Shown: in pieces, positions 1,417 through 16,181 of the stretch | How the letters are laid out: every line of letters starts with the position of its first letter | Position numbering within the stretch: position 1 is the stretch's first letter | NCBI GenBank assembly: GCA_946886365.1 | Contig: CAMPIM010000084.1 | Coordinates: 1 to 17,254 of the forward strand | Direction: 5' to 3' | Length of the DNA: 17,254 bases | Origin: an uncultured Novosphingobium sp. | Lineage (GTDB): Bacteria > Pseudomonadota > Alphaproteobacteria > Sphingomonadales > Sphingomonadaceae | Notes under the pieces: model-generated | What the model saw: only the letters and a program-made list of their open reading frames with translations | Told to the model about the DNA's origin: nothing | The model's database searches: none | Made by a program: the position numbers and the translations under genes

Positions 1417-1444
1417 GTGATACATGTTATCTGACATATGTCAA
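1417..1444 (-). promoter_or_regulatory. Candidate promoter of pntAA-pntAB
   Basis: On the minus strand a perfect TTGACA (1439-1444) is followed, after 16 bases, by TATCAC (1417-1422), which matches TATAAT at four of six positions. It points at pntAA, whose start lies about 100 bases downstream. The palindrome at 1433-1442 overlaps the -35 hexamer, so a bound protein would block RNA polymerase. Predicted from sequence only. Confidence 0.5.
1433..1442. promoter_or_regulatory. Operator candidate 1 (GACATATGTC), upstream of pntAA
   Basis: Exact match to GACAnnTGTC, here part of a perfect 12-base palindrome TGACATATGTCA (1432-1443). It lies between SDR1 and pntAA and overlaps the -35 element of the pntAA promoter. 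The same core occurs exactly at 2554, 2806, 10726 and 16063. Assigning it to the TetR-family regulator at 16212 is inference. Confidence 0.6.
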
Positions 1445-1487
1445 TTATCGATGCAGCCCACAGGTGCGTGCAGCGGGCCGTCATGGA

Positions 1488-1517
1488 GCAGGCGCCGTCA
1501 TGAAGACTGGCGCCTGC
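1488..1517 (-). terminator. Hairpin after SDR1
   Basis: GCAGGCGCC (1488-1496) pairs with GGCGCCTGC (1509-1517). An inner GTC/GAC pairing extends the stem past a one-base bulge. It begins nine bases after the SDR1 stop codon. No run of T follows on the minus strand, so it may end transcription only weakly or protect the 3' end of the message. Confidence 0.4.
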
Positions 1518-1525
1518 CCAAAGGT

Positions 1526-2344
1526 TCAAAGCGAAATGCCGCCGTCGACGCAGGTGATCTGGCCGGTGACATAGGACGCCTGTTCAGACGAAAGGTAGAG
1601 CACCATGCTGGCAAGCTCCTCGCCCCGACCCGGCCGATTGCCCAAGCGAATGCGGCTGGTCATCCATTCCAGCGCTTCGGCCCCAGCGTCGCCGCCGGTC
1701 ATGGCACGACCCGGATCATCGAGCGAAGCCTCCGTCTTGTCGATCGCGCCCATACCGAAGTTGAACCAGCCCAGGCGGACGACATTCGCGCGCACTCCGT
1801 AGACAGCCTCTTCCGCCGCCAGATAAAGCGCCATGCTTTCCAGACCCGCCTTTGGCACCGCCGACTGACCGTCGCGATCGAAGCGACGGGCGTTGCCGAA
1901 GCTGGTGCAAACAGTGATGACGCCCTTGTTGGCGCGCATCTGTTCCTTGGTGGCGCTGATCACATTGAAGAAGCCGAACAGTTCAGTCTTGACGAGAAAC
2001 TCCATGAAGCTGGGCTTCACGTCGGCCAGTTGCAGAGTGTTGTCCCACATCGGCCCGGACGCATAGATGACCGTGTGGATATGGCCGAAACGCTTCACCA
2101 CGCCGCTGATACATTGTTCGACAGCCTGCAAGTCGGTTATGTCCAGCTTGCGGGCTGATGCCGTTACGCCTTCGCTTTCCAGTTCATTCACCAACGCATT
2201 CGCCTTGGTTTCATTGCTGTTGTAGGTGAAGGCGATATTGGCGCCAGTCTTTGCAAAGGCGCGCACGATCGCCGACCCCGCGCCGCCGGTTCCGCCGATG
2301 ATGAACACGGCACCTTCGCGCCGCACCGTCAAATTATAGGTCAT
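1526..2344 (-). CDS. SDR-fold protein lacking the catalytic tyrosine (SDR1)
   Basis: This 272-residue protein belongs to the short-chain dehydrogenase/reductase family. The start is the ATG at 2344 (MTYNLTV), chosen for its GGAGAG ribosome-binding sequence; an upstream extension has none. The cofactor loop is GGTGGAG at 17-23, and the end carries the usual SYVTGQ...VDGG motif. The active site is unusual: Ser148 and Lys165 are in place, but the Tyr of YxxxK is Ser161 (SAVPK), and the usual Asn position is Glu121. I read these codons directly (TCG GCG GTG CCA AAG). There is also no Tyr seven residues before the Lys, as enoyl reductases have. It could be a redirected enzyme, a lyase/hydratase-like relative or a non-catalytic partner. 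It stands alone, divergent from VOC1, with an operator-like palindrome 84 bases upstream of its start codon. Confidence 0.85.
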   Translation of the reverse strand: MTYNLTVRREGAVFIIGGTGGAGSAIVRAFAKTGANIAFTYNSNETKANALVNELESEGVTASARKLDITDLQAVEQCISGVVKRFGHIHTVIYASGPMWDNTLQLADVKPSFMEFLVKTELFGFFNVISATKEQMRANKGVITVCTSFGNARRFDRDGQSAVPKAGLESMALYLAAEEAVYGVRANVVRLGWFNFGMGAIDKTEASLDDPGRAMTGGDAGAEALEWMTSRIRLGNRPGRGEELASMVLYLSSEQASYVTGQITCVDGGISL

Positions 2345-2427
2345 TTTTTCTCTCCATAAGTCCGCGTTGCAAGCACCCAATCCGCCAGCGAACGCCCGTC
2401 AGCGCCAAAGGTGTTGGCATATTACCT

Positions 2428-2437
2428 GACGGTTGTC
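2428..2437. promoter_or_regulatory. Operator candidate 2 (GACGGTTGTC), upstream of SDR1
   Basis: Matches GACAnnTGTC at seven of eight defined positions. It lies three bases upstream of a minus-strand TAATAT (2419-2424) that could be the SDR1 -10 box. A TTGACT at 2446-2451 is 21 bases from that box, too far for an ordinary promoter, so the promoter assignment is weak. A seven-of-eight match alone is not significant; its position is what supports it. Confidence 0.35.
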
Positions 2438-2553
2438 GTTCATTTAGTCAATGACCAATGCGCTGTCCCGCCACCCAAAGGGCCGCCTCCCCCGCCCCAT
2501 TCAGTCGACGCCGCCATTTATCAATTTGACGAATGGAGGCATATTCGTTAGCA

Positions 2554-2563
2554 GACATTTGTC
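2554..2563. promoter_or_regulatory. Operator candidate 3 (GACATTTGTC)
   Basis: Exact match to GACAnnTGTC, followed at once by a further TTGTC half-site (2566-2570). It lies midway in the SDR1/VOC1 divergent region, 23 bases after a plus-strand TTGACG. It could control VOC1, or act as an auxiliary site for both genes. Confidence 0.55.
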
Positions 2564-2805
2564 GTTTGTCGAGAAATCAGCGACGGAGGAGCAGGGCATG
2601 AGCCGCTCCGGGTAGAGGATGAATGATCATCAAAAGGTCACCAAAAGCGCTGCATAGCGGAGGGCCAGCTCGCTCAAGGGCCAGGAAATACGCTGGTTTT
2701 CGGACCTGCGGCATGTCCTTGGCCACCGGCGGCCGACATGGTCCAATGCCGTCGGCGAAGATCGGATCCCTCGCGCGATTACCCTCACCGTCGAATCAAT
2801 CATCT

Positions 2806-2815
2806 GACAATTGTC
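2806..2815. promoter_or_regulatory. Operator candidate 4 (GACAATTGTC), just upstream of VOC1
   Basis: Exact match and perfect 10-base palindrome, 18 bases before the VOC1 start codon and three bases before its GAAGGA ribosome-binding sequence. A protein bound here would block transcription elongation or sit at the transcription start. I could not identify convincing -35/-10 boxes immediately upstream. Confidence 0.6.
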
Positions 2816-2833
2816 TTTGAAGGAAGCAACGCC

Positions 2834-3385
2834 ATGAGTGATTTTATCTTCACACCCGCCCTCGCGATCACGCAGATCGCTTTTGTGGTGCCGGACGCCA
2901 TCGAAGCGGCCCGCGCCCATTCCCGCCGTTATGGATCCGGGCCGTTCTGGGCAGTCGAACATTATCCGCTTCACGTCCATCGCTATCGCGGCAAGGACAG
3001 CGTCATCGACGTCACCTCCGTCTATGGTCAGTGGGGCAATATCACCGCCGAATTCGTGCAGCAGCATGATGATGAACCGTCCGCCTATCGTGATCTTGTG
3101 AAGAAGGGCGAGTCGCGGATTCATCATTTCGCCATGTTCGTCGACGATCTGGACAAGCGGATGGCTCAATATGAAGCTGAAGGCTGCGAGGCTGCGCTTT
3201 ATGGCGAAACCTTCCCCAATGGTATGGGCCGCTACGCTATCATGGATACGTCGAAACAACTTGGCGTGATGACTGAACTTTATGAAGAAGAAGGCACCCG
3301 TCCCTTCTACGAACATATGAAGAAGTCTGCAGAAGGATTTGATGGCACCGATCCGATCCGCCGGATGCAGTTCACCGACCTTTAA
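2834..3385 (+). CDS. VOC-superfamily (glyoxalase/dioxygenase fold) protein, VOC1
   Basis: This 183-residue protein has the paired beta-alpha-beta-beta-beta modules of the vicinal oxygen chelate superfamily. Its members include glyoxalase I, methylmalonyl-CoA epimerase and extradiol dioxygenases. The first module opens with ITQIAFVVPD and the second with RIHHFAMFVDD. Candidate metal ligands by position are Gln14, Glu73, His97 or His98, and Glu148; Gln14 stands where the superfamily usually has His. The start at 2834 has GAAGGA nine bases upstream, so the longer reading from 2738 is rejected. It is a clear paralogue of the protein at 8563-9123, with the same QIAFVVPDAIE, GSGPF, YRGK, GQWG and DGxDPIR blocks. 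It is monocistronic, with two operator-like palindromes in its leader. The reaction is unknown; I favour an isomerase, epimerase or hydrolase acting on a pathway intermediate. Confidence 0.85.
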   Translation: MSDFIFTPALAITQIAFVVPDAIEAARAHSRRYGSGPFWAVEHYPLHVHRYRGKDSVIDVTSVYGQWGNITAEFVQQHDDEPSAYRDLVKKGESRIHHFAMFVDDLDKRMAQYEAEGCEAALYGETFPNGMGRYAIMDTSKQLGVMTELYEEEGTRPFYEHMKKSAEGFDGTDPIRRMQFTDL

Positions 3386-3395
3386 GACGAGGTGG

Positions 3396-3428
3396 AGCCG
3401 CCCCGACAGCTAACAGGTCGGGGCGGCT
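3396..3428 (+). terminator. Hairpin after VOC1
   Basis: A perfect 12-pair stem, AGCCGCCCCGAC (3396-3407) with GTCGGGGCGGCT (3417-3428), and a nine-base loop. It starts ten bases after the VOC1 stop. There is no T-tract, so termination may rely on the second hairpin downstream. Confidence 0.5.
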
Positions 3429-3500
3429 GCTGCTGATAGAAAATGGGTTGTTCAGGCGGTGCCCACTCGGCACTGCCCCCGCCGAATTCAGAAGCAAAGT

Positions 3501-3530
3501 AGGGAGGGTAGCCAGCGCTACCCTCCCTTT
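3501..3530. terminator. Convergent terminator between VOC1 and SDR2
   Basis: A perfect 12-pair stem, AGGGAGGGTAGC (3501-3512) with GCTACCCTCCCT (3517-3528), a four-base loop, and a short T-run on the plus side. It lies between the convergent ends of VOC1 and SDR2 and could serve both strands. Confidence 0.6.
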
Positions 3531-3591
3531 CTGCATTCCCTGCGCGTTTGCGGACGGAAGCAATGCTCCCGCCCGCACCGCTGTGTCGTTG

Positions 3592-4386
3592 TCAGCTGCT
3601 CAGATGCGCCGTGGCACGCGCGGCCACCTCGCCCAGTTCGGACAGGATCGGGTTGCGGCGGAGCGTGAGCCCGCCATTCACCTGAAGATTCTGGCCGGTC
3701 ATGAAACATTCGTCGGATGCCAGCCACACCACGGCAGCCGCAATATCTTCGCGCGTGCCAAGGCGGCCGAGCGGATATTCCTTTGCAAAGGCGTCGATCA
3801 GTTCCTTCACGCTGAAGCTGTCGCCAGCCATCGGCGTTTCGGTGAGGCCCGGCGAAATGGAGTTCGCCCGGATGCCCCGCGCGCCATATTCGTTCGCCAC
3901 GGTACGGATCACATGGTCGATTCCGGCCTTGGTGCCCATATAGGCGGCGTGATTTTCGAGCATGATAGTCGCGGTGGCGGAGGAAATCTGGATGATCGAT
4001 CCGCCCTGCCCCATTACCCGCAACATCGCCTGGATGAAGAAGAAGGGACCTTTGAACTGGATGTCCATGATCTTGTCGAGATCAGCCTCCGTCGTTTCAT
4101 GGGTCGGCTTCATCAGGCCCCAGCCAGTCGCGTTCACCGCGACGTCCAGTTTGCCATAGGTTTTGACGGCAAAGTCAGCGGCGGCATCGACATCGGCCTT
4201 GCTGGTGATGTCCATCAATATGTAGCTGCCGCCGATCTCTGCCGCGAGCTTGCGCAACGGCTCTTCGTGACGACCGGTCACGACGACCTTCGCGCCTTCC
4301 TGGGCGAGGCGCTCGGCGATCTTCTGGGCCATGTTCTGTTCGCCCGCGGCGCCGGTGACCAGTGCTACTTTTCCTTCAAGCCTCAT
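3592..4386 (-). CDS. Short-chain dehydrogenase/reductase, SDR2
   Basis: A 264-residue classical-length SDR. The catalytic set is present: Ser136, Tyr149 and Lys153 (AAYMGTK), with NATG at 85-88 and the C-terminal GQNLQVNGG. Gln110 replaces the usual Asn. The cofactor loop is atypical: TGAAGEQNM at 11-19 has Glu and Asn where TGxxxGxG has its last two glycines. Arg39 after the second strand favours NADP(H). The start is the ATG at 4386, six bases after AGGAG. A TTG six bases upstream in the same frame is less likely because it would touch the ribosome-binding site. The gene follows the TonB receptor after 100 bases, but a strong terminator lies between them, so expression needs read-through or a promoter I cannot see. 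It is probably a ketone/alcohol oxidoreductase of the pathway; the substrate is unknown. Confidence 0.9.
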   Translation of the reverse strand: MRLEGKVALVTGAAGEQNMAQKIAERLAQEGAKVVVTGRHEEPLRKLAAEIGGSYILMDITSKADVDAAADFAVKTYGKLDVAVNATGWGLMKPTHETTEADLDKIMDIQFKGPFFFIQAMLRVMGQGGSIIQISSATATIMLENHAAYMGTKAGIDHVIRTVANEYGARGIRANSISPGLTETPMAGDSFSVKELIDAFAKEYPLGRLGTREDIAAAVVWLASDECFMTGQNLQVNGGLTLRRNPILSELGEVAARATAHLSS

Positions 4387-4435
4387 ATTCAACTCCTGGG
4401 ATTTTCGGTGCCCCGCCGCAGCCTGATGAAAAGCG

Positions 4436-4476
4436 AAAAAGGCCGGGCCGCCTCGCCAGGCTGACGAGGCGGCCCG
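4436..4476 (-). terminator. Rho-independent terminator after the TonB-dependent receptor
   Basis: On the minus strand a 12-pair stem (4465-4476 with 4444-4455, CGGGCCGCCTCG and CGAGGCGGCCCG) has a nine-base loop. It is followed three bases later by TTTTTCGCTTTT. It begins 10 bases after the receptor stop codon and is the best-formed terminator on this strand. Confidence 0.8.
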
Positions 4477-4486
4477 CCATGTCGTG

Positions 4487-6871
4487 TCAGAAGCGCGCGG
4501 TCAGCGACGCGCCCCAGGTCCGGCCCGGCGACGGGTTGGCCCAGTCGATGAAGGTGAATACCGCCTCGCCCGACGTGTAACCGTCGTACGTGGTGTTGTC
4601 GGTCACGTTCTTGACGAAGCCCGAGACCTCGAGCGTGGTGTTGCCGCTCACCGGGAACTCGTAGCGTACACCGAGGTCGACCTTCGTCACCGGCGGGATC
4701 GACGCACGCGGGTCGTTGATCACGTCCGTTTGGTACCGCGACGTATGGAACAGAGCCGCGTTCAGGCCGATGGTCCCCGGACCGGCGTCGAAGCTGTAGT
4801 CCGAAATCAGACCACCGGTCCATTTCGGGGTGCGCCGCAGCTTCAATCCGGAAAGGTCCGTCTCTCCCTGCCCCAGATTACCGATGAAGTTCAGATACTT
4901 CGCTTCAAGATAGCCGAGCGATCCGGAGATCGTCCACCCCCGCATCGGCGCAACGGCCAATTCGGCTTCGATGCCCTGATAGCGAGCCTTGGCGGCGTTC
5001 AGGGTGTTGGTGACGTTCGTGGTTCCGACGACCTGCAGGATATTTTCCTGCTTGTCGCTCAGCGTGTTGTGGAACGCGGAAAGGTTCAGGCGAACCCGGT
5101 TATTGAGGAATTCGGTCTTGAGGCCGACCTCGAACGCATCCATCGTTTCGGGCAAATAGGCCTGTGTTGCGGTAACCAGGTTGCCAGGACGACCGTTGAA
5201 GCCGCCGGTGTTGTAACCACGGCTGTATTGGGCATAGGCCATGACGTCGGGCGTAAACTTGTATTGCAGGTTCACCTTCGGCGTAAACTTTTTGAACTTG
5301 GCGCGCCCTGCAACGCTTCCGACCAGCGGCCCGATAACATCATTGTCCCGCACGGTAGAAAATACGGGGTCCCACAAACTATAGGCAGTCGTCTTCCTGT
5401 CCCAGGTCTGACGGGCACCAACCGACAACTGCAGTTTTTCGGTGATGTCATAGTCCGCCTGGAAGAACAAGGCGAAGGTCTTGTTTGTCTGATGCGTATC
5501 GTAGCGGTTGAGTGAATTGAGGAAGCCTACGCCCGGCGGAGTCGAGAAAGTCGGCAAGCCGTTCGTGAGGATCGGACTCCCCGTGGTGAGAAACCCGTCG
5601 GGCAGCATCGACACGTCAAGCGACGGATCTTGCACCTCCGTATAGGAGTAGTTCATGTAAAATGCGCCGGCAACGACGTTGAACGGCCCCTCGAACGACG
5701 TTGCGAAGCGGGCCTCCTGCGAGAACTGCTTGGCATCGACCCGGGCCTTGTCGCGGAACAGCGCAAAGCGGGTTGCGTCGAAATCGCTGGTCTGCCGTTC
5801 GTGGAACTCGCGATAGCCGGTCAGCGAAACGAATTTGACCTGATCGGTCAAATCGTACGACACTTCACCGGTCACCGCAGTCATGCGCAGAGATGCGGGA
5901 AGCTGGGTCGTTTCGACGACATTCTTGCCCTTGTCGAGATTGGCAAGCGGGCCGCAGACGATGCTCGTCGCCGGATTGTAACAGGTCGCGTTTGCGCCAC
6001 CGACATAGCCCGGCAACGGATAAGGGATGAAATCGGGGACGTTAAGGGGCGTATAGGGCGGAATCTGGCTGTCGTTTTCCAGCCGGTCGAATGCCAAATA
6101 GATGTTCAGGCGATCGGTGGGGGTTGCAACAGCGGCGAGCGAGTATTGCCGGACATCACGATCGCCCTCCCGTCCGCCGGTCACGATGTTGCGGAACTGG
6201 CCATTATCCTTGCGCACCGAAACGGTCGCCTTGACCGCAAGCACGTCCTTGATCACCGGGGCCATGATGTAGCCTTCGTAGTCGTTCTGGCCGAAGCTGC
6301 CCACCGTTAAGCGCACCTTGCCCGTCGTGTCCGCCGACGGGTCGGGCCGGAGGCGGATCACGTTGATCACCCCGCCGGTCGTGTTCTTGCCGTTCAGAAC
6401 GCCCTGCGGGCCGCGCAGAACCTCCACGCGCTGGACATCGAACGCATCGATGAGCGCGCCGCGCTGGAACGCGATCGGAATGCCATCGAGCGTGATGCCG
6501 ATACCGGCCTCGACGCTGGGCAGGACGTCCTGAATGGAAATGCCGCGCAAGCTGATCTGGGGCACGTCGACGGCGGCGCCGGAACGCGTGACGGTCATGC
6601 CCGGCACAAGGCCGCGAAGGCCGGTAAGGCCATCGACGCGGGCCTTTTGAAGCGTGTCATTGCTGAACGCGGAAACGGAGACAGGCACACTTTGCAGTGG
6701 CTCGGCACGCTTCTGCGCAGTTACGATGATGTCCGAAAGTCCTTCGGATTGCTGCGGCTGATTGGCTGCGGCCGCGTCCGGCGCTTGCTGCGGCTCTGCG
6801 GCCAATGCCGCCTGAAAGCCGCCCAACGCAGTTGCGATCGCTATCGCCGACGAAAATGCCAGGCCTCGCAT
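4487..6871 (-). CDS. TonB-dependent outer-membrane receptor
   Basis: A 794-residue outer-membrane beta-barrel receptor that would import a substrate using TonB-ExbBD energy. Residues 1 to about 25 form a signal peptide (hydrophobic AFSSAIAIATALGG, ending ALAA before EPQ). A Gln/Ala-rich linker leads to SDIIVTAQKR (46-55), the TonB-box and plug start typical of sphingomonad receptors. The plug continues through VPGMTV, SLRGIS and VEVLRGPQGVLNGKNTTGGVINV, and the barrel ends with a terminal Phe (SLTARF). The start ATG at 6871 follows GGGGAGG. No siderophore-specific feature is visible. Its place inside a catabolic cluster, with an operator-like palindrome upstream, suggests uptake of the hydrophobic growth substrate rather than iron, but this is inference. 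Confidence 0.95.
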   Translation of the reverse strand: MRGLAFSSAIAIATALGGFQAALAAEPQQAPDAAAANQPQQSEGLSDIIVTAQKRAEPLQSVPVSVSAFSNDTLQKARVDGLTGLRGLVPGMTVTRSGAAVDVPQISLRGISIQDVLPSVEAGIGITLDGIPIAFQRGALIDAFDVQRVEVLRGPQGVLNGKNTTGGVINVIRLRPDPSADTTGKVRLTVGSFGQNDYEGYIMAPVIKDVLAVKATVSVRKDNGQFRNIVTGGREGDRDVRQYSLAAVATPTDRLNIYLAFDRLENDSQIPPYTPLNVPDFIPYPLPGYVGGANATCYNPATSIVCGPLANLDKGKNVVETTQLPASLRMTAVTGEVSYDLTDQVKFVSLTGYREFHERQTSDFDATRFALFRDKARVDAKQFSQEARFATSFEGPFNVVAGAFYMNYSYTEVQDPSLDVSMLPDGFLTTGSPILTNGLPTFSTPPGVGFLNSLNRYDTHQTNKTFALFFQADYDITEKLQLSVGARQTWDRKTTAYSLWDPVFSTVRDNDVIGPLVGSVAGRAKFKKFTPKVNLQYKFTPDVMAYAQYSRGYNTGGFNGRPGNLVTATQAYLPETMDAFEVGLKTEFLNNRVRLNLSAFHNTLSDKQENILQVVGTTNVTNTLNAAKARYQGIEAELAVAPMRGWTISGSLGYLEAKYLNFIGNLGQGETDLSGLKLRRTPKWTGGLISDYSFDAGPGTIGLNAALFHTSRYQTDVINDPRASIPPVTKVDLGVRYEFPVSGNTTLEVSGFVKNVTDNTTYDGYTSGEAVFTFIDWANPSPGRTWGASLTARF

Positions 6872-7200
6872 ATATCCTCCCCATTCAACGCTGATTTTTG
6901 ATCCGATGTGGCCGCGACTCTTTTTTGAATCGACTTGTCGCTACACAAGTGTGCTAGCTAACTGCTTTTCGCCGGAGGGTCAACAGTGAAGCGCCCGCAA
7001 CAAGCGCTTATGAGCATTTTTATATGACATATGACGGTTATTTTTTCATTTCGTGGCGGGTTAAGCGGCTATCCCTGTCACGCGAGTGACCAGTCTTTGA
7101 TGCATCATGTCGTCGCTTGAATATCAGACGTTCGTCATTTATCGTACGAATGTGCGGTGAGAGCCAGGCTCTGGCCGCGATCGCAAGGAGTGGATATCAG
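6872..7200. other. 329-base divergent region between TonB receptor and NIPSNAP-like gene
   Basis: No gene is visible. It contains the operator-like site at 7026, an ACTTGT/ACAAGT inverted repeat (6933-6938 and 6945-6950, six bases apart), and a TTGACC (6978-6983) 17 bases from TAGCTA (6955-6960), a poor -10. It also contains a weak symmetric GACGTTCGTC (7127-7136) and a TGATGCATCA palindrome (7098-7107). Both flanking genes must start transcription here. Confidence 0.5.
7026..7035. promoter_or_regulatory. Operator candidate 5 (GACATATGAC), upstream of the TonB receptor
   Basis: Matches GACAnnTGTC at seven of eight positions. On the minus strand it lies one base before TATAAA (7019-7024), a good -10 box facing the receptor, giving a leader of about 140 bases. 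The -35 position (GAAAAA) is poor. The string TGTCATATAA read here also occurs at the 16063 site. Confidence 0.4.
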
Positions 7201-7515
7201 ATGAGCGTTTATCTTCAGGCAACGTTGGAACTCGATTATGAGACGCTTCCCGTCTTTTTGAACATAGTTCCTGAGATGAAGCGCATCGCCGAAGGCGCGG
7301 GTTGGGAGATGATCGCAGGGCTCGTCACCAAGATCGGGCGGGCCAATACCGTCATCCATCTTTGGAAATTGCCGGACATGAATGCTTTCGATGCCGGTAT
7401 ACAGGCGATGGCGAGCGCGCCTGAAGGTGGCAAAATCTATCAGGAAATCTGCCGGAGCGGTGCGAAAGAAACGCTGATCTTCGCTGATGCAGCGCCCTAT
7501 TCACCGGCGCATTGA
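7201..7515 (+). CDS. NIPSNAP-like small protein (dimeric alpha-beta barrel)
   Basis: A 104-residue protein resembling the NIPSNAP group of the dimeric alpha-beta barrel (ferredoxin-like) fold. The best-recognised part is the stretch around residues 46-60 (GRANTVIHLWKL), where relatives have a similar N-x-V-x-H-L-W strand, followed by a helix and an A-S-A-P-E-G-G turn. The start ATG at 7201 follows AAGGAG ten bases upstream; the longer reading from 7117 has no such signal. It is a single-gene unit ending in a strong terminator. Members of this fold in degradation clusters are often small accessory enzymes or of unknown function, and I cannot name a reaction. The family call is from pattern recognition and is moderately sure. 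Confidence 0.75.
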   Translation: MSVYLQATLELDYETLPVFLNIVPEMKRIAEGAGWEMIAGLVTKIGRANTVIHLWKLPDMNAFDAGIQAMASAPEGGKIYQEICRSGAKETLIFADAAPYSPAH

Positions 7516-7531
7516 CGCAGAGCTGAAAATG

Positions 7532-7567: not shown

Positions 7568-7610
7568 ATACTGGTGCTCCCCGGCCGCAGTGACCGGGGA
7601 CCGTCGCTAA

Positions 7611-8562: not shown

Positions 8563-9123
8563 TCAGGGTTGGCCATATATGTAACGGATGGGATCGGACC
8601 CGTCCCAGCCTTCGGCGGCATCCCGCACCATTTTGTAGAAATCGCTGACAACAGCCTCTTCATAGAATTCGGTCAGCATGCCGAACTCCTTGCGCGTGTC
8701 CATCATCGCATAGGGGCTGGGTTTGGAGTCGCCGAGCGGTGACACGACGGAATAGAGGATGTTATCAAAGCCCTTGCTTTCATAATCCTTGATCGCCGCG
8801 TGAATGTCGTCAACGAACACCGTCATGTGGTGCAGGCCGGGACCACCTGTCGGATAAAGTTCACTATAGGCCGATGGCGTGTCACAATGCTGTTCCACCA
8901 GTTCGACCATCACGTCGCCCCATTGGCCGACGACACCTGTCGTATCGAGGTCGATTTCCTTGCCGCGATAGGTTTGCAGGTCATGGGGAAGGTGCGCGAG
9001 CACAAAGAAGGGGCCAGAGCCGAAGCGGGCCATGTGTCGGCGCGCCCATTCGATCGCGTCCGGTACAACGAATGCGATCTGCCGCACCTTCTTGAGTTGG
9101 CCTGAAACAGGGTCCAGGAACAT
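8563..9123 (-). CDS. VOC-superfamily protein, VOC2 (paralogue of VOC1)
   Basis: A 186-residue two-module VOC protein: VRQIAFVVPD opens module one and LHHMTVFVDD module two. Candidate metal ligands are Gln15, Glu74, His98 or His99, and Glu152, the same set and spacing as in VOC1, again with Gln in the first position. The start at 9123 (MFLDPVSG) has AAGGAGAGG directly upstream; an in-frame start at 9147 would lie before that ribosome-binding site. It is followed closely by the aldo/keto reductase, so these two are likely translated as a pair. It comes 138 bases after the Rieske oxygenase, across a strong hairpin. I see no clear copy of the shared palindrome upstream, so it may depend on read-through from the oxygenase. 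Function beyond the fold is unknown. Confidence 0.87.
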   Translation of the reverse strand: MFLDPVSGQLKKVRQIAFVVPDAIEWARRHMARFGSGPFFVLAHLPHDLQTYRGKEIDLDTTGVVGQWGDVMVELVEQHCDTPSAYSELYPTGGPGLHHMTVFVDDIHAAIKDYESKGFDNILYSVVSPLGDSKPSPYAMMDTRKEFGMLTEFYEEAVVSDFYKMVRDAAEGWDGSDPIRYIYGQP

Positions 9124-9256: not shown

Positions 9257-9261
9257 GTTCG

Positions 9262-10590
9262 TCATTCAGCGGCGATGGACATCCCATTTTCGACGATCAG
9301 TTGATCGATGCGGTCGTGATAATGGGAAATCCGCTTTTCCTGCCCGGCCAGTTCCGCGCCATTCCACCCGCGCGAATGCATGCCGCGCTGCTGCGCCTCC
9401 ATGATACCGGCGTCGCCATCGAGCGTGATGCCAAGGCTTCCTTCGCCGAAGTTGCGCCATTCGCGTTCTACAGGCGCACGCACAGTGTCGGCAACGCCGC
9501 CCGCCGAGGTCAGCATCTTGGTGAAGAAGTCCTCTGAACCCGTCGCATAGAACCAGGTGTCGAAGGTGCATTTTTCCGGGTCGGTCGGATGCGGCCAGGC
9601 GCGCAGGAACAGCATGCCGTCCGAAAAACAGGTCAGCGTCAGGTTGGGGAAGATCGAATAGAGGAAGGTGTCGGTCAGTTGCGCGTCTTCCATCCGGTCA
9701 TAATGGCTATGGCCGCGCTCGACGCCCAGCTTCCGCTTTTGCGCGATGATCGCTTCCCGGATCGCCAGCGGCTTGTCCTTGAAATCTTCCGGCTGCAATT
9801 CCCAGGTCTTAAGGTCCTGGATCAGATACTCGTCGATCGCCAGCTTGCCATCGGGCAGATAGCGCGAAGGCTGGCTGCCCGGCGTCACAAGGCGCGCATG
9901 GCCGTTCTTCAGCGTTTCGATGACCGCTGTCACATAATAGGGCTCGTTCACATACAACCCCTCCGGATGCGCGGTGGGGATGTGATATGTTTCGCGGAAA
10001 TTGTCCGAAATGATCTTCCAGTTGCAGGGCATCCGCACTGATATGGCCTGGGTGCAGTGCATCTGCTCGAAGGGATAGCGCGCCAACGGCTCGTACAGTT
10101 CGCCCAGATACTCTTTGAGAGGCATCGGGTTGGCGTCCATGTTCACCCAGACGAAGCTGGCGAAGGTCTCACTGTTGATCTGGGCGAGCCGCTTGCGTCC
10201 GCATGGGGAGCCCGCAGAGAAGTCCTCCGGGTCCTGCGCGCCGATGCATTCGCCTTCCAGCGACCATTTCCAGCTATGATAGGCGCAGGTGAAGGACGGC
10301 ATCGAGCCTTCCGCCACGGACACCAGCTTGTTCCCGCGATGCTGGCAGACATTGTAGAAGGCCTTGATGCCGCCATCTTCCTGACGCACGACCAGAATGG
10401 ATTCCGTGCCAACCTCTTCCACCAGGAAGTCGCCCGGCTCAGGAATCTGGTCTTCGCGGCAAACCACGAGCCAGCTTTTGGTCCAAACTGCGTCCCATTC
10501 CCGCCCCGCGAAGTCGCGGTCGAAATAGCGCCAACCCTGAAGTTTCGAAGACCGTCCGGCTCCCGCCTCGGCGACCAGATTTTCCGTCAT
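9262..10590 (-). CDS. Rieske non-heme iron oxygenase, alpha (catalytic) subunit
   Basis: A 442-residue ring-hydroxylating-type oxygenase. The Rieske [2Fe-2S] ligands are Cys82, His84, Cys102 and His105 (VCQHRGN, then CAYHSWKW). The mononuclear iron site is NFRETYHIPTAH with His203 and His208, and a C-terminal Asp (probably Asp393, in DAGIMEAQQRGM) completes the triad. Glu200 is in the position of the residue that links the two metal centres across subunits. The ATG at 10590 is six bases after AGGAG; an ATG at 10596 is too close to it. The family hydroxylates, demethylates or desaturates aromatic and alicyclic substrates with O2 and electrons from a ferredoxin. No beta subunit follows, so an alpha-only oligomer is likely. 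The ferredoxin at 14911 is the probable electron donor, and no reductase is in the window. Confidence 0.95.
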   Translation of the reverse strand: MTENLVAEAGAGRSSKLQGWRYFDRDFAGREWDAVWTKSWLVVCREDQIPEPGDFLVEEVGTESILVVRQEDGGIKAFYNVCQHRGNKLVSVAEGSMPSFTCAYHSWKWSLEGECIGAQDPEDFSAGSPCGRKRLAQINSETFASFVWVNMDANPMPLKEYLGELYEPLARYPFEQMHCTQAISVRMPCNWKIISDNFRETYHIPTAHPEGLYVNEPYYVTAVIETLKNGHARLVTPGSQPSRYLPDGKLAIDEYLIQDLKTWELQPEDFKDKPLAIREAIIAQKRKLGVERGHSHYDRMEDAQLTDTFLYSIFPNLTLTCFSDGMLFLRAWPHPTDPEKCTFDTWFYATGSEDFFTKMLTSAGGVADTVRAPVEREWRNFGEGSLGITLDGDAGIMEAQQRGMHSRGWNGAELAGQEKRISHYHDRIDQLIVENGMSIAAE

Positions 10591-10712
10591 TTCCATCTCC
10601 TGTCGATTCAATCCAGGCGCATCCCGGCGCGCTGATCCTGTTTCCAATCGTCCAGCTACATCCAACGGCCCGCTTTACGCGCACTAGGCAAAAGGCGGCC
10701 AGGTTCCGGACG

Positions 10713-10741
10713 ATCATGCATAACGGACATTTGTCCGTCAA
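10713..10741 (-). promoter_or_regulatory. Candidate promoter of the Rieske oxygenase gene
   Basis: On the minus strand TTGACG (10736-10741) and CATGAT (10713-10718) are 17 bases apart, each one base or so from consensus. The palindrome 10726-10735 occupies the first part of the spacer. The start codon lies about 120 bases downstream. Confidence 0.5.
10726..10735. promoter_or_regulatory. Operator candidate 6 (GACATTTGTC), in the oxygenase promoter
   Basis: Exact match to GACAnnTGTC within a longer symmetric site, ACGGACA-TT-TGTCCGT (10723-10738), whose arms of seven bases are perfect. It sits directly after the -35 hexamer and between it and the -10, the usual place for a repressor site. Confidence 0.65.
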
Positions 10742-10799
10742 TAGCGGAGTATCCTTCCTTCGCGGAGTCCGCGCCTTTACGGCCGACCCCGCGCTAGAT

Positions 10800-11408
10800 T
10801 TATCCTTGTGACGGCTTGTCCACCGCCTGAGCGATCTTCATCGCCAAATCTTCAGCAACCGGCTTCAGCATCGGTCCCAGCAGCAGGTTGAGAACCGGCC
10901 CGGTGGCTCCGCCCGCCTGAACGTTCAGCCGGAAAGTGATCTGCGTGTTCGGATCGCCCGCATCTGCCACGGGCGCTGCTGCTTGCACATCGACGCTGTT
11001 GGTGACGCGCCGCAGCAACCAGCGGGACAGGCGTTCCCACAATCTGCTCAGCCAGCCGCCTGAGGGTGAATGTGCGGGAGCGGGGGCGGGTGGCGCGGCA
11101 TTCGCGATGCCGGCGCCCAGGTCGATCGCCAGAAACTCGCCCGATCCGGTGACAGGCTCCTGCAAACCCTGCATCACGAAGGTGACGCGGCTAGGCTCGT
11201 TCCATTCCGTGACCTGGACCTTGAACTCCGCGCTGCGAGTCAGGCCGCCCAGCTCGCCCTTCACAACCCAGATGGATTCATCGCGGTTGATCTTCTCGTG
11301 GCGCTGATACCCTGTGAGAAACGGCGCCCAATTGTCCATGTCCTCGACGAAATTCCAGACCTGAGGCAGGGAGGCGGTGACCGTTGTGGTATGTTCGACT
11401 TCGGGCAA
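10800..11408 (-). CDS. SRPBCC-superfamily (CoxG-like) protein with an inserted amphipathic segment
   Basis: A 202-residue protein with the START/SRPBCC helix-grip ligand-binding fold. PEVEHTTTVTASLPQVWNFV and an NWAPFLTG segment form the start, strands follow to about residue 97 (GSGEFLAID), and the last strand (TQITFRLNVQ) and long C-terminal helix (LLGPMLKPVAEDLAMKIAQA) end it. The C-terminal pattern resembles CoxG-type members. Between residues about 98 and 154, where the fold normally has a short turn, lies a Pro/Ala-rich linker and a Trp/Arg-rich helix (WLSRLWERLSRWLLRRV, 119-135). The start is TTG at 11408, chosen because AGGAGG lies five bases upstream and the frame has no ATG nearby; the reading from 11582 lies inside the upstream gene. 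It follows the KstD-like gene by 13 bases. Its role may be to bind a hydrophobic intermediate; this is inferred. Confidence 0.75.
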   Translation of the reverse strand: MPEVEHTTTVTASLPQVWNFVEDMDNWAPFLTGYQRHEKINRDESIWVVKGELGGLTRSAEFKVQVTEWNEPSRVTFVMQGLQEPVTGSGEFLAIDLGAGIANAAPPAPAPAHSPSGGWLSRLWERLSRWLLRRVTNSVDVQAAAPVADAGDPNTQITFRLNVQAGGATGPVLNLLLGPMLKPVAEDLAMKIAQAVDKPSQG

Positions 11409-11421
11409 TGTCGCCTCCTTT

Positions 11422-13044
11422 TCAGAACCTGTTGACGCTGGACGCCGCCTCGCGTCCGGCGATGTGGCCGAAGACCAGGCCCGGCCCGATCGTGGCCCCG
11501 GCGCCCGGATAGGCCATGCCGGTGAACCCGCCGGAGACGTTCCCCGCCGCGTAAAGGCCGGGGATGCGGCCGCCCCTGACATTCACCACTTCCGACTTGG
11601 CGTTGATCTTCGGGCCGCCCTTTGTGCCGAGCACGCCGGAATAGACACGGCAGGCGTAGAAGGGGCCTTGCTGGATCGGCCCCAGCGACTGGAGCGCACC
11701 TTCGCGCGACGGGTCGCCATAATGACGGTCATATTTGCTCCGGCCGCGGTGGAAGTCGGGGTCCTCGCCCCGTTCGACATTCGCGTTGAAACGCGTGACC
11801 GTGTCTTCAAGGCCATCTGGGTTTACGCCGATTTTCTCGGCCAGTTCGCGCAGCGTCGGCGCGGATTCGAGCCATGCCGGAATCGGATCGCCCGGATAGC
11901 GCGTGCCGAACGGATATTTGTCGAGGAAAGTCGAATCGAGGATGATCCAGGCGGGCAGGTTCGGATAGTCGAACGCCACTGGGTCGAAGTTGCGGAAGGA
12001 GCGGCCAACATCATTATAATTGTGGGCTTCGTTGACGAAGCGCTTGCCCGCACGGTTGACCATGATCGAACCGGGGGAGGCTCTTTCGCCGACCACCATG
12101 CGGTTGAGCTGCTGCCCTTCATATTCGTCGCCCGGAATGCGGATCATCGGCATCCACCAGGCTTCATGGGCATTGGCCATGCTCGCCTGCGCCTCGGCCG
12201 CCATGATGAGGCCATCGCCCTCATTGAAAGGCGGGCTGAGCGGACCTTCGATGGGAGCGCCCATCAGGTCGGTCGCCATGTCCTTGTTCCATTCAAAGCC
12301 GCCGCTTGCCAGAATGACGGCGCGACGGGCGCCGATCCTGACCATGCGGCCATCCTGTTCGACCTCAATACCGACAATGGCGCCATCGTCGATCACCAGG
12401 CGGCGGCCACGGGCGTTGCGGCGAAACTCCACGCCCTTGTCCACCGCGCCCTTGATAAGGCCAGCCATCAGCGCCATGCCGGTGCCCACCATGCCCTTGG
12501 CAAGGCGGTCGCCGATGATTTCGGGGTCCAGCATATTGGTCCCGTCATCAATGTCGGTCATCGCGACAGGCAGCGGGAAGCAGGGGGCCGAACGCAGATG
12601 CGCGCGCAGTTCACCCAACTCGCCCGCCGGGAACAGGCCGGGGCTTACGGAGCGGCCGAAGGTGCCGCCGGGATGTTCTGGGTGATAGTCCGGCGTCTTG
12701 AGCGCCCGGAACGCCAGCTGGGTCTCTTGCTCGAGATAACGCAACACGCCCGGCGCTTCATCGACATAGGTTTCGGCCAGTTCGATGTCCATTTTGCCGA
12801 GCGAAAGGCTGCGAAGATAGGTGAGCGCCTGTTCGCGCGAGTCGGTCGTTCCAACCTCGTGCATGTGGTGATTGTTGGGGATCCACGGCACGCCGCCCGA
12901 CACGGCGCTCGTCCCGCCCAGCTTGTCGCTGCGCTCCAGCACCAGCGTCTTGCAACCGCGATGCTGTGCCGCGATCGCCGCCGACACGCCCGCCGCGCCG
13001 GAGCCCATGACCACCACGTCGAAAACCTCATCCCATACCGGCAT
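11422..13044 (-). CDS. KstD-like FAD-dependent dehydrogenase
   Basis: A 540-residue flavoprotein of the 3-ketosteroid delta1-dehydrogenase/fumarate reductase family. The N-terminal FAD site is GSGAAG (14-19), with Glu37 for ribose binding and GGTSAVSGG at 43-51. A second FAD motif comes late (YAAGNVSGG). Near the C-terminus, MAYPGAGATIGPG places Tyr512 and Gly516 where 3-ketosteroid dehydrogenases have the catalytic Tyr and Gly of YPxxG. No signal peptide is seen, so it is not a periplasmic fumarate reductase. The ATG at 13044 follows GGAGAG. It lies 54 bases after the GMC oxidoreductase and just before the SRPBCC gene, an evident operon. It probably introduces a double bond next to a ring ketone; whether the substrate is a steroid is not shown by the sequence. 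Confidence 0.9.
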   Translation of the reverse strand: MPVWDEVFDVVVMGSGAAGVSAAIAAQHRGCKTLVLERSDKLGGTSAVSGGVPWIPNNHHMHEVGTTDSREQALTYLRSLSLGKMDIELAETYVDEAPGVLRYLEQETQLAFRALKTPDYHPEHPGGTFGRSVSPGLFPAGELGELRAHLRSAPCFPLPVAMTDIDDGTNMLDPEIIGDRLAKGMVGTGMALMAGLIKGAVDKGVEFRRNARGRRLVIDDGAIVGIEVEQDGRMVRIGARRAVILASGGFEWNKDMATDLMGAPIEGPLSPPFNEGDGLIMAAEAQASMANAHEAWWMPMIRIPGDEYEGQQLNRMVVGERASPGSIMVNRAGKRFVNEAHNYNDVGRSFRNFDPVAFDYPNLPAWIILDSTFLDKYPFGTRYPGDPIPAWLESAPTLRELAEKIGVNPDGLEDTVTRFNANVERGEDPDFHRGRSKYDRHYGDPSREGALQSLGPIQQGPFYACRVYSGVLGTKGGPKINAKSEVVNVRGGRIPGLYAAGNVSGGFTGMAYPGAGATIGPGLVFGHIAGREAASSVNRF

Positions 13045-13098
13045 TATAGCTCTCCAGTCGCTCGCGGTTCGCGCCGCTTCCTATGTCGTTTGCACTTG

Positions 13099-14694
13099 TC
13101 ACGCATGGCTGCGTCCCTTGATCAGGTCCGCCGCCTTTTCGCCAATCATGATGGCGGGCATGTTCGTATTTCCGCCGACGAGCGTCGGCATCACCGACGT
13201 GTCGGCCACCCGTAGCCCGCCAATGCCCCTGACCCGCAGGCGGGCATCGACGACGCTGTCATCGTCCGATCCCATCTTGCACGTACCGGCCGTGTGATAA
13301 TCTGCACTTGCGTCGGCACGGATGAAGGCGTCGATCTGGCTGTCGGTCTGTACGGACGCGCCCGGCGACAATTCATCGCCGCGATAGGGATCGAAGGCGG
13401 CCTGTCCGAAAATCTGGCGGCACACGCGGATGCCATTGCGGAAGTCGACCATGTCCCGGGCATCGCTGAGGTAGCGGTGATCCACGACCGGCGCGGCATG
13501 CGGGTCGGGCGAGGCCAGCGTCACATGCCCACGGCTGTGGGGCCGGACGACGCAGACATGCGCCATGAAGCCATGACGCGGCATCAGGCCTGTCAGCGTG
13601 TCATTCATCAGCGCCAGCACCAGCGAGAGCTTTATGTCCGGCTCAGCGAGGTCCGGTTGCGATCGCACATAGGCGACCGCTTCCATGCCGGTGCTGGCGA
13701 GCGGCCCCTTACGGAAAGCCAGATATTGCGCGAAGGCCAGCGCCCCCTTCAGCGGGCTGACATATTGATAATGGGATACTGGCTGCGTCACCGCCTGCTT
13801 CACATAGGTGGACAGATGGTCCTGAAGATTCTGACCGACGCCGGGCAGATTATGGACCGGGTCGACGCCGACCTGCGACAGGGCCGAAGCGTCACCGATG
13901 CCGGACAGCATCAGAAGCTGGGGCGAATTGATGCCGCCACCGCAGAGGATCACCTCGCCGCCCGCACGGAGGTCAAGCTCCTGCCCTTTTTCCCGAATGC
14001 GAACGCCGACGGCGCGGCCATTTTCGACCAGTATCTTGAGCACTTGCGCGCCCAGACGCACCTCCAGGTTCAAGCGCGAGCGGAACGGCTTTATGTAGGC
14101 GGTCGCCGCGCTCCACCGGCGGCCCCGGCTGACGAACATGTCGACGGGACCGGCGCCATCGCGAACCGCGCCGTTGGTGTCGTCATTATAAGGGTAGCCA
14201 GCTTCTTCGCAGGCTTGCAGGAACGCCTTGGCGAGTGGATTGTGGACGCCGGGGCGGCTGATCCTGACCGGCCCGGAGTGACCGTGCCACCGCGCATCGC
14301 CGCCCGGCTCGTAACTTTCGGCCCGCTTGAAATAGGGTAGCACGTCCTCATAGGACCAGCCGGAATTGCCCAGCGCCGCCCACCGATCGTAATCGCTCGG
14401 CGTGCCTCGATCATAGATCATGCCGTTGATCGAGCTGCCGCCTCCCAGAACCTTGCCACGGGGGAGGAAAAGGACGCGGTCGTTCAGCTCTTCCTGCGGC
14501 GCGCTCCTGTAGTTCCAGCTATGCTTGCCCGACGTCAAAAGCGGCATCAGCCCGCCGGGCGCATGGATGAGGGGATCACGGTCAGTGCCCCCCGCCTCAA
14601 GCAGGATTACCTTGTGGCGGCTGTCTTCCGACAAACGGTTGGCGACGGCACAGCCCGCCGCTCCCGCGCCCACAACGATATAGTCCGCGTTCAA
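13099..14694 (-). CDS. GMC-family FAD oxidoreductase (alcohol dehydrogenase type)
   Basis: A 531-residue glucose-methanol-choline oxidoreductase, closest in look to choline dehydrogenase and AlkJ-type alcohol dehydrogenases. It has DYIVVGAGAAGC with GAGAAG at 9-14 and Glu33, the first GMC signature RGKVLGGGSSINGMIY at 79-94, the second around GGGINSPQLLMLSGIG, and the C-terminal DYHTAGTCKMG with catalytic His467 and Asn511 (GNTNMPAIMIGEKA). The start is TTG at 14694, with CGGAG eight bases upstream, and no in-frame ATG precedes the FAD motif. It heads the GMC, KstD-like and SRPBCC run. The family oxidises alcohols to aldehydes or ketones using FAD and a membrane or soluble acceptor. The substrate is probably a hydroxylated pathway intermediate, possibly the product of the Rieske oxygenase. 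Confidence 0.93.
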   Translation of the reverse strand: MNADYIVVGAGAAGCAVANRLSEDSRHKVILLEAGGTDRDPLIHAPGGLMPLLTSGKHSWNYRSAPQEELNDRVLFLPRGKVLGGGSSINGMIYDRGTPSDYDRWAALGNSGWSYEDVLPYFKRAESYEPGGDARWHGHSGPVRISRPGVHNPLAKAFLQACEEAGYPYNDDTNGAVRDGAGPVDMFVSRGRRWSAATAYIKPFRSRLNLEVRLGAQVLKILVENGRAVGVRIREKGQELDLRAGGEVILCGGGINSPQLLMLSGIGDASALSQVGVDPVHNLPGVGQNLQDHLSTYVKQAVTQPVSHYQYVSPLKGALAFAQYLAFRKGPLASTGMEAVAYVRSQPDLAEPDIKLSLVLALMNDTLTGLMPRHGFMAHVCVVRPHSRGHVTLASPDPHAAPVVDHRYLSDARDMVDFRNGIRVCRQIFGQAAFDPYRGDELSPGASVQTDSQIDAFIRADASADYHTAGTCKMGSDDDSVVDARLRVRGIGGLRVADTSVMPTLVGGNTNMPAIMIGEKAADLIKGRSHA

Positions 14695-14861
14695 TGCGCG
14701 TACTCCGGCAACGAGGTCCGTCCACCGTTAAGGGGAGCCGCGCCGCAACAGCCGACCAGCGCACAGTCGCGGAAATGCAAATGACCTTGCAACGATCCTA
14801 CTCCTCCAGGACGCATTTCGCCCCAATTTTTCCCCGGACGCCGTGATGCGCCCCGATCCAC

Positions 14862-14889
14862 TTTATGCGACCCTTGTCACATTACGCAA
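14862..14889 (-). promoter_or_regulatory. Candidate promoter of the GMC operon
   Basis: On the minus strand TTGCGT (14884-14889) and CATAAA (14862-14867) are 16 bases apart, facing the GMC start about 165 bases downstream. The -35 begins inside the gap after the ferredoxin stop. An operator-like site fills the spacer in the same arrangement as at the oxygenase promoter. Confidence 0.35.
14869..14878. promoter_or_regulatory. Operator candidate 7 (GACCCTTGTC on plus), in the GMC promoter
   Basis: Read on the minus strand as GACAAGGGTC, it matches GACAnnTGTC at seven of eight positions. It lies between the predicted -35 and -10 boxes. Weak alone; supported by position. Confidence 0.35.
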
Positions 14890-14910
14890 TGGCGGCCGAC
14901 CGCAGCTGTC

Positions 14911-15237
14911 TCAACTTACCTCCGCAGGCACCGCGACCTCTACCTGGCCATCCACGACACGTGTTTCGAACGTGCGGAGCGGCTTGTCCGTCAGCTGACC
15001 CTTGGGATTTCCGGTTCGCAGGTCGAAGGGCATGCCATGTTCGGGGCACAGCACCATGCAGCGCCTGATGCGTCCGGCTGCCAGGGAAAAAGCGCGATGC
15101 GTGCATTCATTTTGCACACAGAAAAACTCTCCGTCCGCATGACACAGCAGAAGGTCCAAGCCGTTCACTGTTATCGGCTTGCTGCTGTTGTTCGGCAGAT
15201 CGGCGGCCGCAGCGACGGGAAGGAAGTCGGCGCTCAT
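14911..15237 (-). CDS. Rieske-type [2Fe-2S] ferredoxin
   Basis: A 108-residue stand-alone Rieske ferredoxin. The cluster ligands are Cys45, His47, Cys64 and His67 (CTHRAF ... CPEHGMPFD), a C-x-H, 16 residues, C-x-x-H arrangement. The fold continues through TGNPKGQL and a closing strand (GQVEVAVPAEVS). Length and lack of other domains fit the electron carriers of Rieske oxygenases, which pass electrons from a reductase to the oxygenase; the oxygenase at 9262-10590 is the likely partner. The ATG at 15237 overlaps the stop codon of the SDR3 gene in an ATGA arrangement, so translation is coupled. Because its ribosome-binding sequence (GGAGG, 12 bases upstream) is distant, coupling probably matters. 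No cognate reductase gene is present here. Confidence 0.93.
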   Translation of the reverse strand: MSADFLPVAAAADLPNNSSKPITVNGLDLLLCHADGEFFCVQNECTHRAFSLAAGRIRRCMVLCPEHGMPFDLRTGNPKGQLTDKPLRTFETRVVDGQVEVAVPAEVS

Positions 15238-15998
15238 GCTATGGTCAAGCCTCCATCAACGACAAATTCGGCACCCGTCACATAGGACGCCTCTTGCGAT
15301 GCCAGGAACAGGGACATGTTCGCGACATCTTCCGGTCGGCCCAAGCGACCGAGCGGGATCGGCGCAGTGGCGGCGTCGATAGCGGCCGGATCGCCCTGAA
15401 GCAATTGATCGACCATCGGCGTTTCGATCGTACCGGGGTGCACCGAATTGCACCGGATGCCATAGGGCGCTTCATCGAGCGCGACACTTTTGGTCAGCGC
15501 ACGAACGGCCCCCTTGGTAGCGGCATAAGCAGCGCTTCTGTGAACGCCCGTCAATGCGGCAATGGACGAGATATTGACGATGGAACCGCCGCCATTGGCG
15601 CGCATGTACGGGATCACCGCCTGGCAACCCAGGAACGTGCCTCGCAAATTGATTTCGAAAAGGCGGTCAAGCATGGCGACAGGTGTGTCAGAAACATATG
15701 CCGCATGATAGATGCCCGCATTGTTCACGAGAATGTCGATGTGCCCGAACCGTTTAAGGGCGTCGGCGGCGAGTTCCTGCCATCCTTCTTCCTGACGGAC
15801 ATCCTGCGATCGGGACAACGCAATGCCGCCCTCCTGCGTGATGGATGCCGCGACCGCCGCAGCACCCGCTTCGTCAAGGTCCGTCAGGATCACCGACGCA
15901 CCTTCCCGAGCGAACAGGCGGGCAGTTGCCGCGCCCATGCCGTGCATCGAGCCAGCGCCTGTGATAATTGCCGTCTTGCCAGACAGTCGACTGCCCAA
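15234..15998 (-). CDS. Short-chain dehydrogenase/reductase, SDR3 (NAD-type)
   Basis: A classical SDR of 254 residues from the chosen start. The nucleotide loop is TGAGSMHGMG at 13-22, two residues longer than TGxxxGxG. The acidic LTDLDE after the second strand indicates NAD(H). NNAG, the Ser of NISS, and YAATK give the full catalytic set, and the protein ends SYVTGAEFVVDGG. I chose the TTG at 15998 (MGSRLSGKTAII) because AGGGAGAGG lies just upstream and the N-terminus then matches the family. The ATG at 16025 would add nine residues but has no ribosome-binding site, and a TTG at 16067 falls inside the operator palindrome. It is divergent from tetR and coupled to the ferredoxin. It is probably an alcohol dehydrogenase acting after hydroxylation (inference). 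Confidence 0.92.
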   Translation of the reverse strand: MGSRLSGKTAIITGAGSMHGMGAATARLFAREGASVILTDLDEAGAAAVAASITQEGGIALSRSQDVRQEEGWQELAADALKRFGHIDILVNNAGIYHAAYVSDTPVAMLDRLFEINLRGTFLGCQAVIPYMRANGGGSIVNISSIAALTGVHRSAAYAATKGAVRALTKSVALDEAPYGIRCNSVHPGTIETPMVDQLLQGDPAAIDAATAPIPLGRLGRPEDVANMSLFLASQEASYVTGAEFVVDGGLTIA

Positions 15999-16062
15999 CG
16001 CACCTCTCCCTACAGCCCGCTCCATACCCGGCGTGGTCGACCACCACAGCCTTTCAGAGACA

Positions 16063-16072
16063 GACAAATGTC
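16063..16072. promoter_or_regulatory. Operator candidate 8 (GACAAATGTC), between SDR3 and tetR
   Basis: Exact match to GACAnnTGTC in the divergent tetR/SDR3 region. On the plus strand it is followed by TATAAG (16074-16079), a fair -10 facing tetR, with a poor -35. It is 64 bases from the SDR3 start codon, so it can affect either gene. Confidence 0.6.
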
Positions 16073-16152
16073 ATATAAGGACCATCTATCGCGCCAGCGG
16101 AAAGCTGTAAAGCGATATCGTGCGCTAGGATACTATTTTTGCAACATCGGAG

Positions 16153-16181
16153 TTGACAGCTGTTTTCGAACCGACTTCACT
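16153..16181 (+). promoter_or_regulatory. Candidate tetR promoter with operator candidate 9
   Basis: A perfect TTGACA (16153-16158) is followed after 17 bases by TTCACT (16176-16181), matching three of six -10 positions. The -35 box is part of GACAGCTGTT (16155-16164), a seven-of-eight match to the shared palindrome. This is a layout expected for a repressor that limits its own synthesis. Confidence 0.4.

Follow-up and report, generated by a model that had tools for sequence, protein, structure and literature searches.

The locus and its palindromic sites

We analysed a stretch of 17,254 nucleotides from an uncultured Novosphingobium sp. (contig CAMPIM010000084.1; hereafter the window), which belongs to a catabolic island carried by Sphingobium megaplasmids, and in which a short palindrome, GACA-N2-TGTC, recurs between genes and probably forms the core of an operator for a TetR-family protein encoded in the same stretch (TetR1). 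Alignments to ten Sphingobium 'Tom' plasmid records span 80% or more of the window with 92-97.5% identity, and the nearest among the genomes compared is G001. The block common to the complete relative TYG64 and S. vermicomposti comprises approximately 56 kb, from pntB to an acyl-CoA dehydrogenase gene, and its gene order is identical, the sole exception being one small hypothetical gene without a match. The annotation of this block includes three TonB receptors, several glyoxalase-type, FAD-binding and choline-dehydrogenase-type proteins, short-chain dehydrogenases (SDRs) and CoA-thioester enzymes. In the window, Pfam models identified a TonB receptor, a Rieske oxygenase and a ferredoxin, GMC and FAD proteins, three SDRs, two Glyoxalase_4 proteins, an aldo-keto reductase, a NIPSNAP protein and a CoxG-type protein. 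The FAD protein is closest to the models for 4-oxocyclohexanecarboxylate and 3-ketosteroid dehydrogenases, with scores under their cut-offs. No NCBIfam equivalog was found for ten island proteins; among the matches listed, the subfamily cut-offs were passed by the GMC protein (choline dehydrogenase) and the SDR at 15234-16067 (glucose 1-dehydrogenase). In the shared block no regulators other than TetR1 and a second TetR protein, TetR2, were recognised, its hypothetical proteins not having been scanned for any.

The sites and the proposed regulator are listed below. Scores are those of a held-out matrix built from 11 training sites outside the window and outside its orthologous stretch, and fractions give matching arm positions of the core.

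1427-1448: candidate operator, core 1433-1442 (exact), upstream of pntA (172-1317, minus strand); score 29.9, arms the same in eight of eight sequences
2422-2443: candidate operator, core 2428-2437 (7/8), upstream of an SDR gene (1526-2344, minus strand); score 19.2
2548-2569: candidate operator, core 2554-2563 (exact), in the divergent SDR/VOC gap; score 15.5, 7/8 in S. vermicomposti
2800-2821: candidate operator, core 2806-2815 (exact), 18 bp ahead of the VOC start codon (2834, plus strand); score 16.4, 7/8 in S. vermicomposti
7020-7041: candidate operator, core 7026-7035 (7/8), upstream of the TonB receptor gene (4487-6871, minus strand); score 21.2, 7/8 in all eight aligned sequences
7121-7142: newly found candidate operator, core 7127-7136 (6/8, TA on both flanks), upstream of the NIPSNAP gene (7201-7515, plus strand); score 20.2
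8932-8941: exact core GACACCTGTC inside a VOC gene (8563-9123); score below 5, no TA flanks
10720-10741: candidate operator, core 10726-10735 (exact), 135 bp ahead of the Rieske oxygenase start (10590, minus strand); score 18.3, arms the same in eight of eight sequences
14863-14884: probable weaker operator, core 14869-14878 (7/8), upstream of the GMC oxidoreductase gene (13099-14694, minus strand); score 11.4, two mismatches in S. vermicomposti
16057-16078: candidate operator, core 16063-16072 (exact), in the divergent SDR/tetR1 gap; score 20.0, arms the same in eight of eight sequences
16155-16164: doubtful copy (7/8) between 16063 and tetR1; score 8.8
16212-17135: tetR1, plus strand, proposed repressor; recognition helix ITRTSIYSHF

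Numbers and placement of the palindrome

The exact palindrome GACANNTGTC is present in six copies in the window, compared to a mean of 0.18 and a maximum of 2 in 200 dinucleotide shuffles, and matches with at most one mismatch amount to 17 (11 of them inexact) vs a shuffle mean of 5.2. The sequence-only reading had listed five exact copies (1433, 2554, 2806, 10726 and 16063), all of which are present, and had placed none inside genes; that statement fails for the sixth, at 8932, which we rejected as an operator since it is genic, scores low and lacks the TA flanks. It had also pointed to inexact copies in promoter regions. The four that it named exist (2428, 7026, 14869 and 16155) and were selected from the 11; the remaining seven (1283, 9029, 9922, 11913, 14956, 15678 and 16898) are all genic according to our gene map. 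Scored as extended operators (see below), 2428 and 7026 are high, 14869 is moderate and 16155 is low, while the high-scoring site at 7127, with two core mismatches and TA on both flanks, had been missed.

The preference for intergenic DNA, which had been suggested as a check, is clear in TYG64. There, eight of the nine exact copies are intergenic in 80,930 bases of which 10.8% are intergenic (binomial 1.5e-7), and so are 15 of the 49 inexact ones. Among palindromes with 4-base arms and spacers of 0-10 bases, GACA-N2-TGTC is the commonest in TYG64 intergenic DNA with eight occurrences, the runner-up having four. Nine of the ten exact copies on the G001 replicon C2 (1.02 Mb) fall within 57 kb.

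A probable extended operator of approximately 20 bp

The putative operator is longer than the 10-bp core and extends over about 20 bp, TA-N3-GACA-N2-TGTC-N3-TA. A profile of 25 sites (19 from TYG64, six from S. vermicomposti) has T at -4 and A at -3. TA occupies -4/-3 in 18 of 38 TYG64 half-sites vs 0-3 at 13 other offsets; its intergenic frequency is 0.036, and five of 70 half-sites of genic near-copies have it. These counts used 19 TYG64 sites; four of the 15 intergenic inexact sites, located outside the conserved block (646688, 650299, 654457 and 654790), were omitted from all profiles.

With the held-out matrix the top eight positions in the window were, in order, 1433, 7026, 7127, 16063, 2428, 10726, 2806 and 2554, all of them intergenic, and the ninth was 9922, within the Rieske gene. 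Scores of about 8 carry little meaning, the window having 14 hits of at least 8 but 60 kb of other loci (the G153 TetR locus included) having six. A matrix trained on TYG64 gave 18 hits of at least 15 in the S. vermicomposti block, 15 of which are intergenic where 14% of the bases are, a test that is not independent as many hits are orthologs of training sites. Other genomes and loci were scored with a matrix of 17 TYG64 and six S. vermicomposti sites (675460 and 717402 omitted); it gave one hit of at least 12 in 136,831 bases of control TetR loci and none of at least 15 in 98,131 bases of other sphingomonad DNA.

Conservation of the sites

The alignment comprised the window, G001 and five of the ten Tom loci hit; TYG64 and G001 look alike at the sites displayed, so these are not seven independent sequences. 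Not one of the 40 columns in the arms of the five exact intergenic sites varies, vs 151 of the 1078 remaining intergenic columns of the four gaps concerned, and with S. vermicomposti added the numbers are two of 40 and 543 of 1078. The centres vary while the arms are constant, with TT or AA at 10726 and GACGGTTGTC or GACATTTGTC at 2428. The 31 gaps of the block shared with S. vermicomposti contain 17 TYG64 sites that deviate at one position or none, and 14 of these deviate at no more than one at the aligned S. vermicomposti place as well; the three not kept are 674174, 685670 and 685703. At 2428-2437 S. vermicomposti has an exact core, and the core at 7127 is identical in the five Tom loci searched.

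The copy at 16155 behaves differently: its right half varies among the Tom strains, it is exact in TYG64 and G001, and its S. vermicomposti counterpart scores 17.5. In the window it seems, with some doubt, to resemble a -35 element more than an operator.

TetR1 as the candidate regulator

We suggest that TetR1 binds this operator, probably as a dimer, and that the sites represent a TetR repressor regulon that spans the island. As judged from sequence comparisons, a regulon of the TetR protein at 16212, as proposed in the sequence-only reading, appears to be the best-supported interpretation, by virtue of the site in its own promoter, conservation, ortholog distribution and a shared recognition helix. 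In the form that we favour, the operator would be about 20 bp with outer TA, 8932 would not belong to it, 16155 would be doubtful, and the regulon would extend past the window.

TetR1 matches Pfam TetR_N (PF00440) with 26.4 bits at a gathering cut-off of 24, and approximately 50 residues precede this domain. The predicted structure has a TetR fold at moderate confidence (predicted local distance difference test 79.4, predicted template modelling score 0.66), and its best PDB matches are TetR regulators, with template modelling scores by query of at most 0.43. The operator at 16063, between the SDR gene and tetR1, is conserved in eight sequences, and S. vermicomposti has a TetR1 with 85% identity.

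Among 94 Sphingobium genomes, relatives of TetR1 (E < 1e-20) are present in G001, in G503, which was taken as S. vermicomposti, and, remotely, in G011. The distribution of a half-extended pattern, TANNNGACANNTGTC, is concentrated in the first two, with nine matches in G001 (eight different palindromes, since one is matched from either side) and five in G503, and with 67 in total and at most four each in the other 92 genomes; the reversed control has 160 matches in those 92 and none in G001 and G503. All five G503 matches lie in the island, as do seven of those in G001 (the C2 island stretch), the other two being chromosomal. A class-wide search of 385 genomes gave a TetR1 relative in G001 alone, and none was found in viral contigs. 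Metagenomic relatives of TetR1 have 37-83% identity.

The palindrome is also associated with the recognition helix. Of 40 TetR loci, five encode an RT[ST] helix; four of these have an exact copy (L016, L060, L017 and L018) and the fifth, L057 of G153, a 7/8 copy. The 33 non-island loci without this helix, TetR2 excluded, have no exact copy (the two others are TetR2), and there was none in seven further plasmid TetR loci, one of which was read in the wrong frame. The exact copy in L017 (G011) lies between the TetR gene and a divergent TonB gene. L018 (G049) has two exact copies approximately 1 kb upstream and one near copy at 162 bp, and the sites beside the TetR1-like genes score 20.0, 19.9 and 19.0 in G049 and 16.1 in G153. 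No relative other than itself was found for the G049 TetR (2 genomes) or for the G153 TetR (298 genomes). We also noted that the two exact TGACAGGTGTCA copies in G049 are placed 26 bp apart, ahead of a divergently oriented TonB gene and of a unit that includes the TetR (L018:565, 591 and 1408).

Several results weigh against this interpretation. By itself the core is frequent across the genus, with a mean of 16.7 per genome vs 13.3 for the reversed control and at least 29 copies in seven of the 94 genomes. A genome-wide scan with the 10-bp core only is not specific, and we dropped such counts as evidence. The helix class was named after the loci had been seen; it contains one pair of orthologs among its five loci, and many of the 33 controls closely resemble one another. 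With three independent loci the association has a Fisher p of 0.005. Eight of the 33 control loci have a one-mismatch copy within 700 bp. The G049 TetR is just about 24% identical to TetR1, and the G011 site lacks the outer TA and scores 10.7, with no half-extended match in that genome. Finally, only 11 of the 31 TYG64 gaps hold a conserved site with at most one mismatch. The earlier statement that the palindrome marks most promoters of the cluster holds in that sites precede most transcription units, but not every unit has a conserved one.

Alternative regulators

The operator might instead belong to TetR2 (L051:40144-40806), the other conserved TetR of the island, with tetR1 as one of its targets. 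We consider this unlikely. TetR2 is conserved in S. vermicomposti (86-87%) and the TYG64 sites 685670 and 685703 precede a VOC gene and tetR2; however, neither is retained at the aligned S. vermicomposti position, although a different site (20.1) occurs in the gap there. The TetR2 recognition helix differs from that of TetR1, the loci of its remote relatives (G011 and G460) have neither an exact copy nor a matrix hit of at least 12, and TetR2 leaves the palindromes beside the TetR1-like genes of G011, G049 and G153 unexplained.

Slightly less probable still is a Crp/Fnr-type regulator that acts on TGAC-N4-GTCA and is encoded about 3 kb past the window in Tom plasmids (L047:10555-11274) or at an unlinked locus. 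PMC1274295 gives TTGAC-N4-GTCAA for HcpR, of this family, which has the TGAC-N4-GTCA core in common with our sites at equal spacing. HcpR, however, belongs to another protein family than TetR1 and needs the outer TT/AA, a feature of its consensus in place of the TA three bases off that we observe. TT ahead of GAC is not required here (T in 53% and 18% at those positions of the 25 sites), the Rieske site reads CGGACA..TGTCCG in arms and flanks common to seven of eight sequences, and no relative of the Crp/Fnr gene was found within the 80 kb of S. vermicomposti searched. On this evidence TetR2 and the Crp/Fnr protein were both rejected as likelier binders than TetR1.

It is very improbable that the copies are due to chance or are -35 elements (TTGACA) that look palindromic: GACA does resemble the -35 hexamer, Sphingobium genomes contain the core moderately often and 16155 is -35-like in the window, but both halves are conserved amid a half-changed background, the outer TA is symmetric and the counts exceed those of the shuffles.

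Comparison with known systems

The actinobacterial KstR recognises a core of AAC-N2-GTT. KstR, the example given in the sequence-only reading, is likewise a TetR repressor of a large catabolic regulon that uses a short palindrome with a two-base centre, and differs in this core from our profile, GACA-N2-TGTC. EdcR of Caenibius tardaugens, the TetR repressor of estradiol catabolism, has the proposed operator TnnCnnTACnAnTnGTAnnGnnA (PMC8700777). As TetR1 would be, EdcR is a TetR repressor within a sphingomonad catabolic cluster with a proposed palindrome at several promoters, its own included; its printed consensus and our profile, which were compared rather than the proteins, have no common core. 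In Sphingobium sp. SHPJ-2, PheR is a catabolic repressor from the same genus, but of the IclR family and with the minimal motif GCAACG (PMC13273656). The regulon would be of a familiar TetR type with an operator for which we found no published description, in the accessible parts of the literature on the motif, Sphingobium TetR operators, matching gene sets and sphingomonad TetR regulons, subscription journals being mostly outside this scope.

Proposed mechanism

We infer that TetR1 acts by repression rather than activation. A TetR1 dimer would bind the TA-N3-GACA-N2-TGTC-N3-TA operators, where residues N-terminal of TetR_N, as an arm, might reach the outer TA, and would most likely repress its own divergent promoter (autoregulation) as well as the island's TonB uptake genes and oxidative enzymes. 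TetR1 could then be released from the DNA by a substrate or an intermediate of the pathway; the enzyme set leads us to guess at a cyclic, terpenoid- or steroid-like inducer. This reading would bring together the TonB receptors, oxygenases and dehydrogenases of a poorly annotated island in a single regulon that has a candidate regulator, a defined operator and targets in order of rank, and the search for the substrate could then become a search for the ligand that releases TetR1 from DNA.

A role of the island in alpha-tomatine degradation is not supported: according to PMC10653915 all its strains degrade tomatine, the strain of TomTYG65 among them, and the TomTYG65 plasmid and the window match over no more than 169 bases. 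This sole match of AP027331.1 (the plasmid, not the chromosome, was compared) is to a transhydrogenase gene.

Possible chromosomal targets in G001

The two half-extended matches on the G001 chromosome score 29.6 and 26.8. The former lies 135 bp ahead of a Rieske oxygenase gene, the product of which is 70.8% identical to that of the island, and the spacing equals that of 10726 to its gene. The latter lies 39 bp ahead of a gene for an acyl-CoA dehydrogenase with 70.4% identity to the island enzyme at 702054, and a TonB gene adjoins; a third site (19.6) is upstream of a neighbouring epimerase-like gene. The island acyl-CoA dehydrogenase gene has an exact upstream site in S. vermicomposti (53083) and none with at most one mismatch in TYG64. 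Outside the island, 17 of the 20 exact copies in G001 were scored with the matrix (one on C2 and two on C3 omitted), and the half-extended scan took in all; of those in S. vermicomposti 11 were scored, with a maximum of 12.5, and the twelfth, C4:106462, is below 12.

We consider the chances even that the island TetR also governs the chromosomal Rieske and acyl-CoA dehydrogenase paralogues via these operator copies, and so joins two replicons in one pathway. If true, these targets would offer a case, open to testing, in which a plasmid controls paralogues on the chromosome of plant-associated Sphingobium.

As to the gene content of the two chromosomal loci, L087:4205-7145 has a tandem pair of Rieske oxygenase genes behind the strong 29.6 operator, the first being the 70.8% relative, and L088:2651-8815 comprises epimerase-like, TonB, acyl-CoA dehydrogenase and enoyl-CoA hydratase genes with the operator-like sites of 26.8 and 19.6.

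Gene starts and gap lengths

The start of the SDR gene at 15234-16067 is uncertain. Its longest frame begins within the operator (16067), and relatives are annotated from a place equivalent to approximately 15947, which lies inside the nucleotide-binding motif. The VOC/SDR2 gap at 3386-3591 varies in length by up to about 280 bp across the aligned strains.

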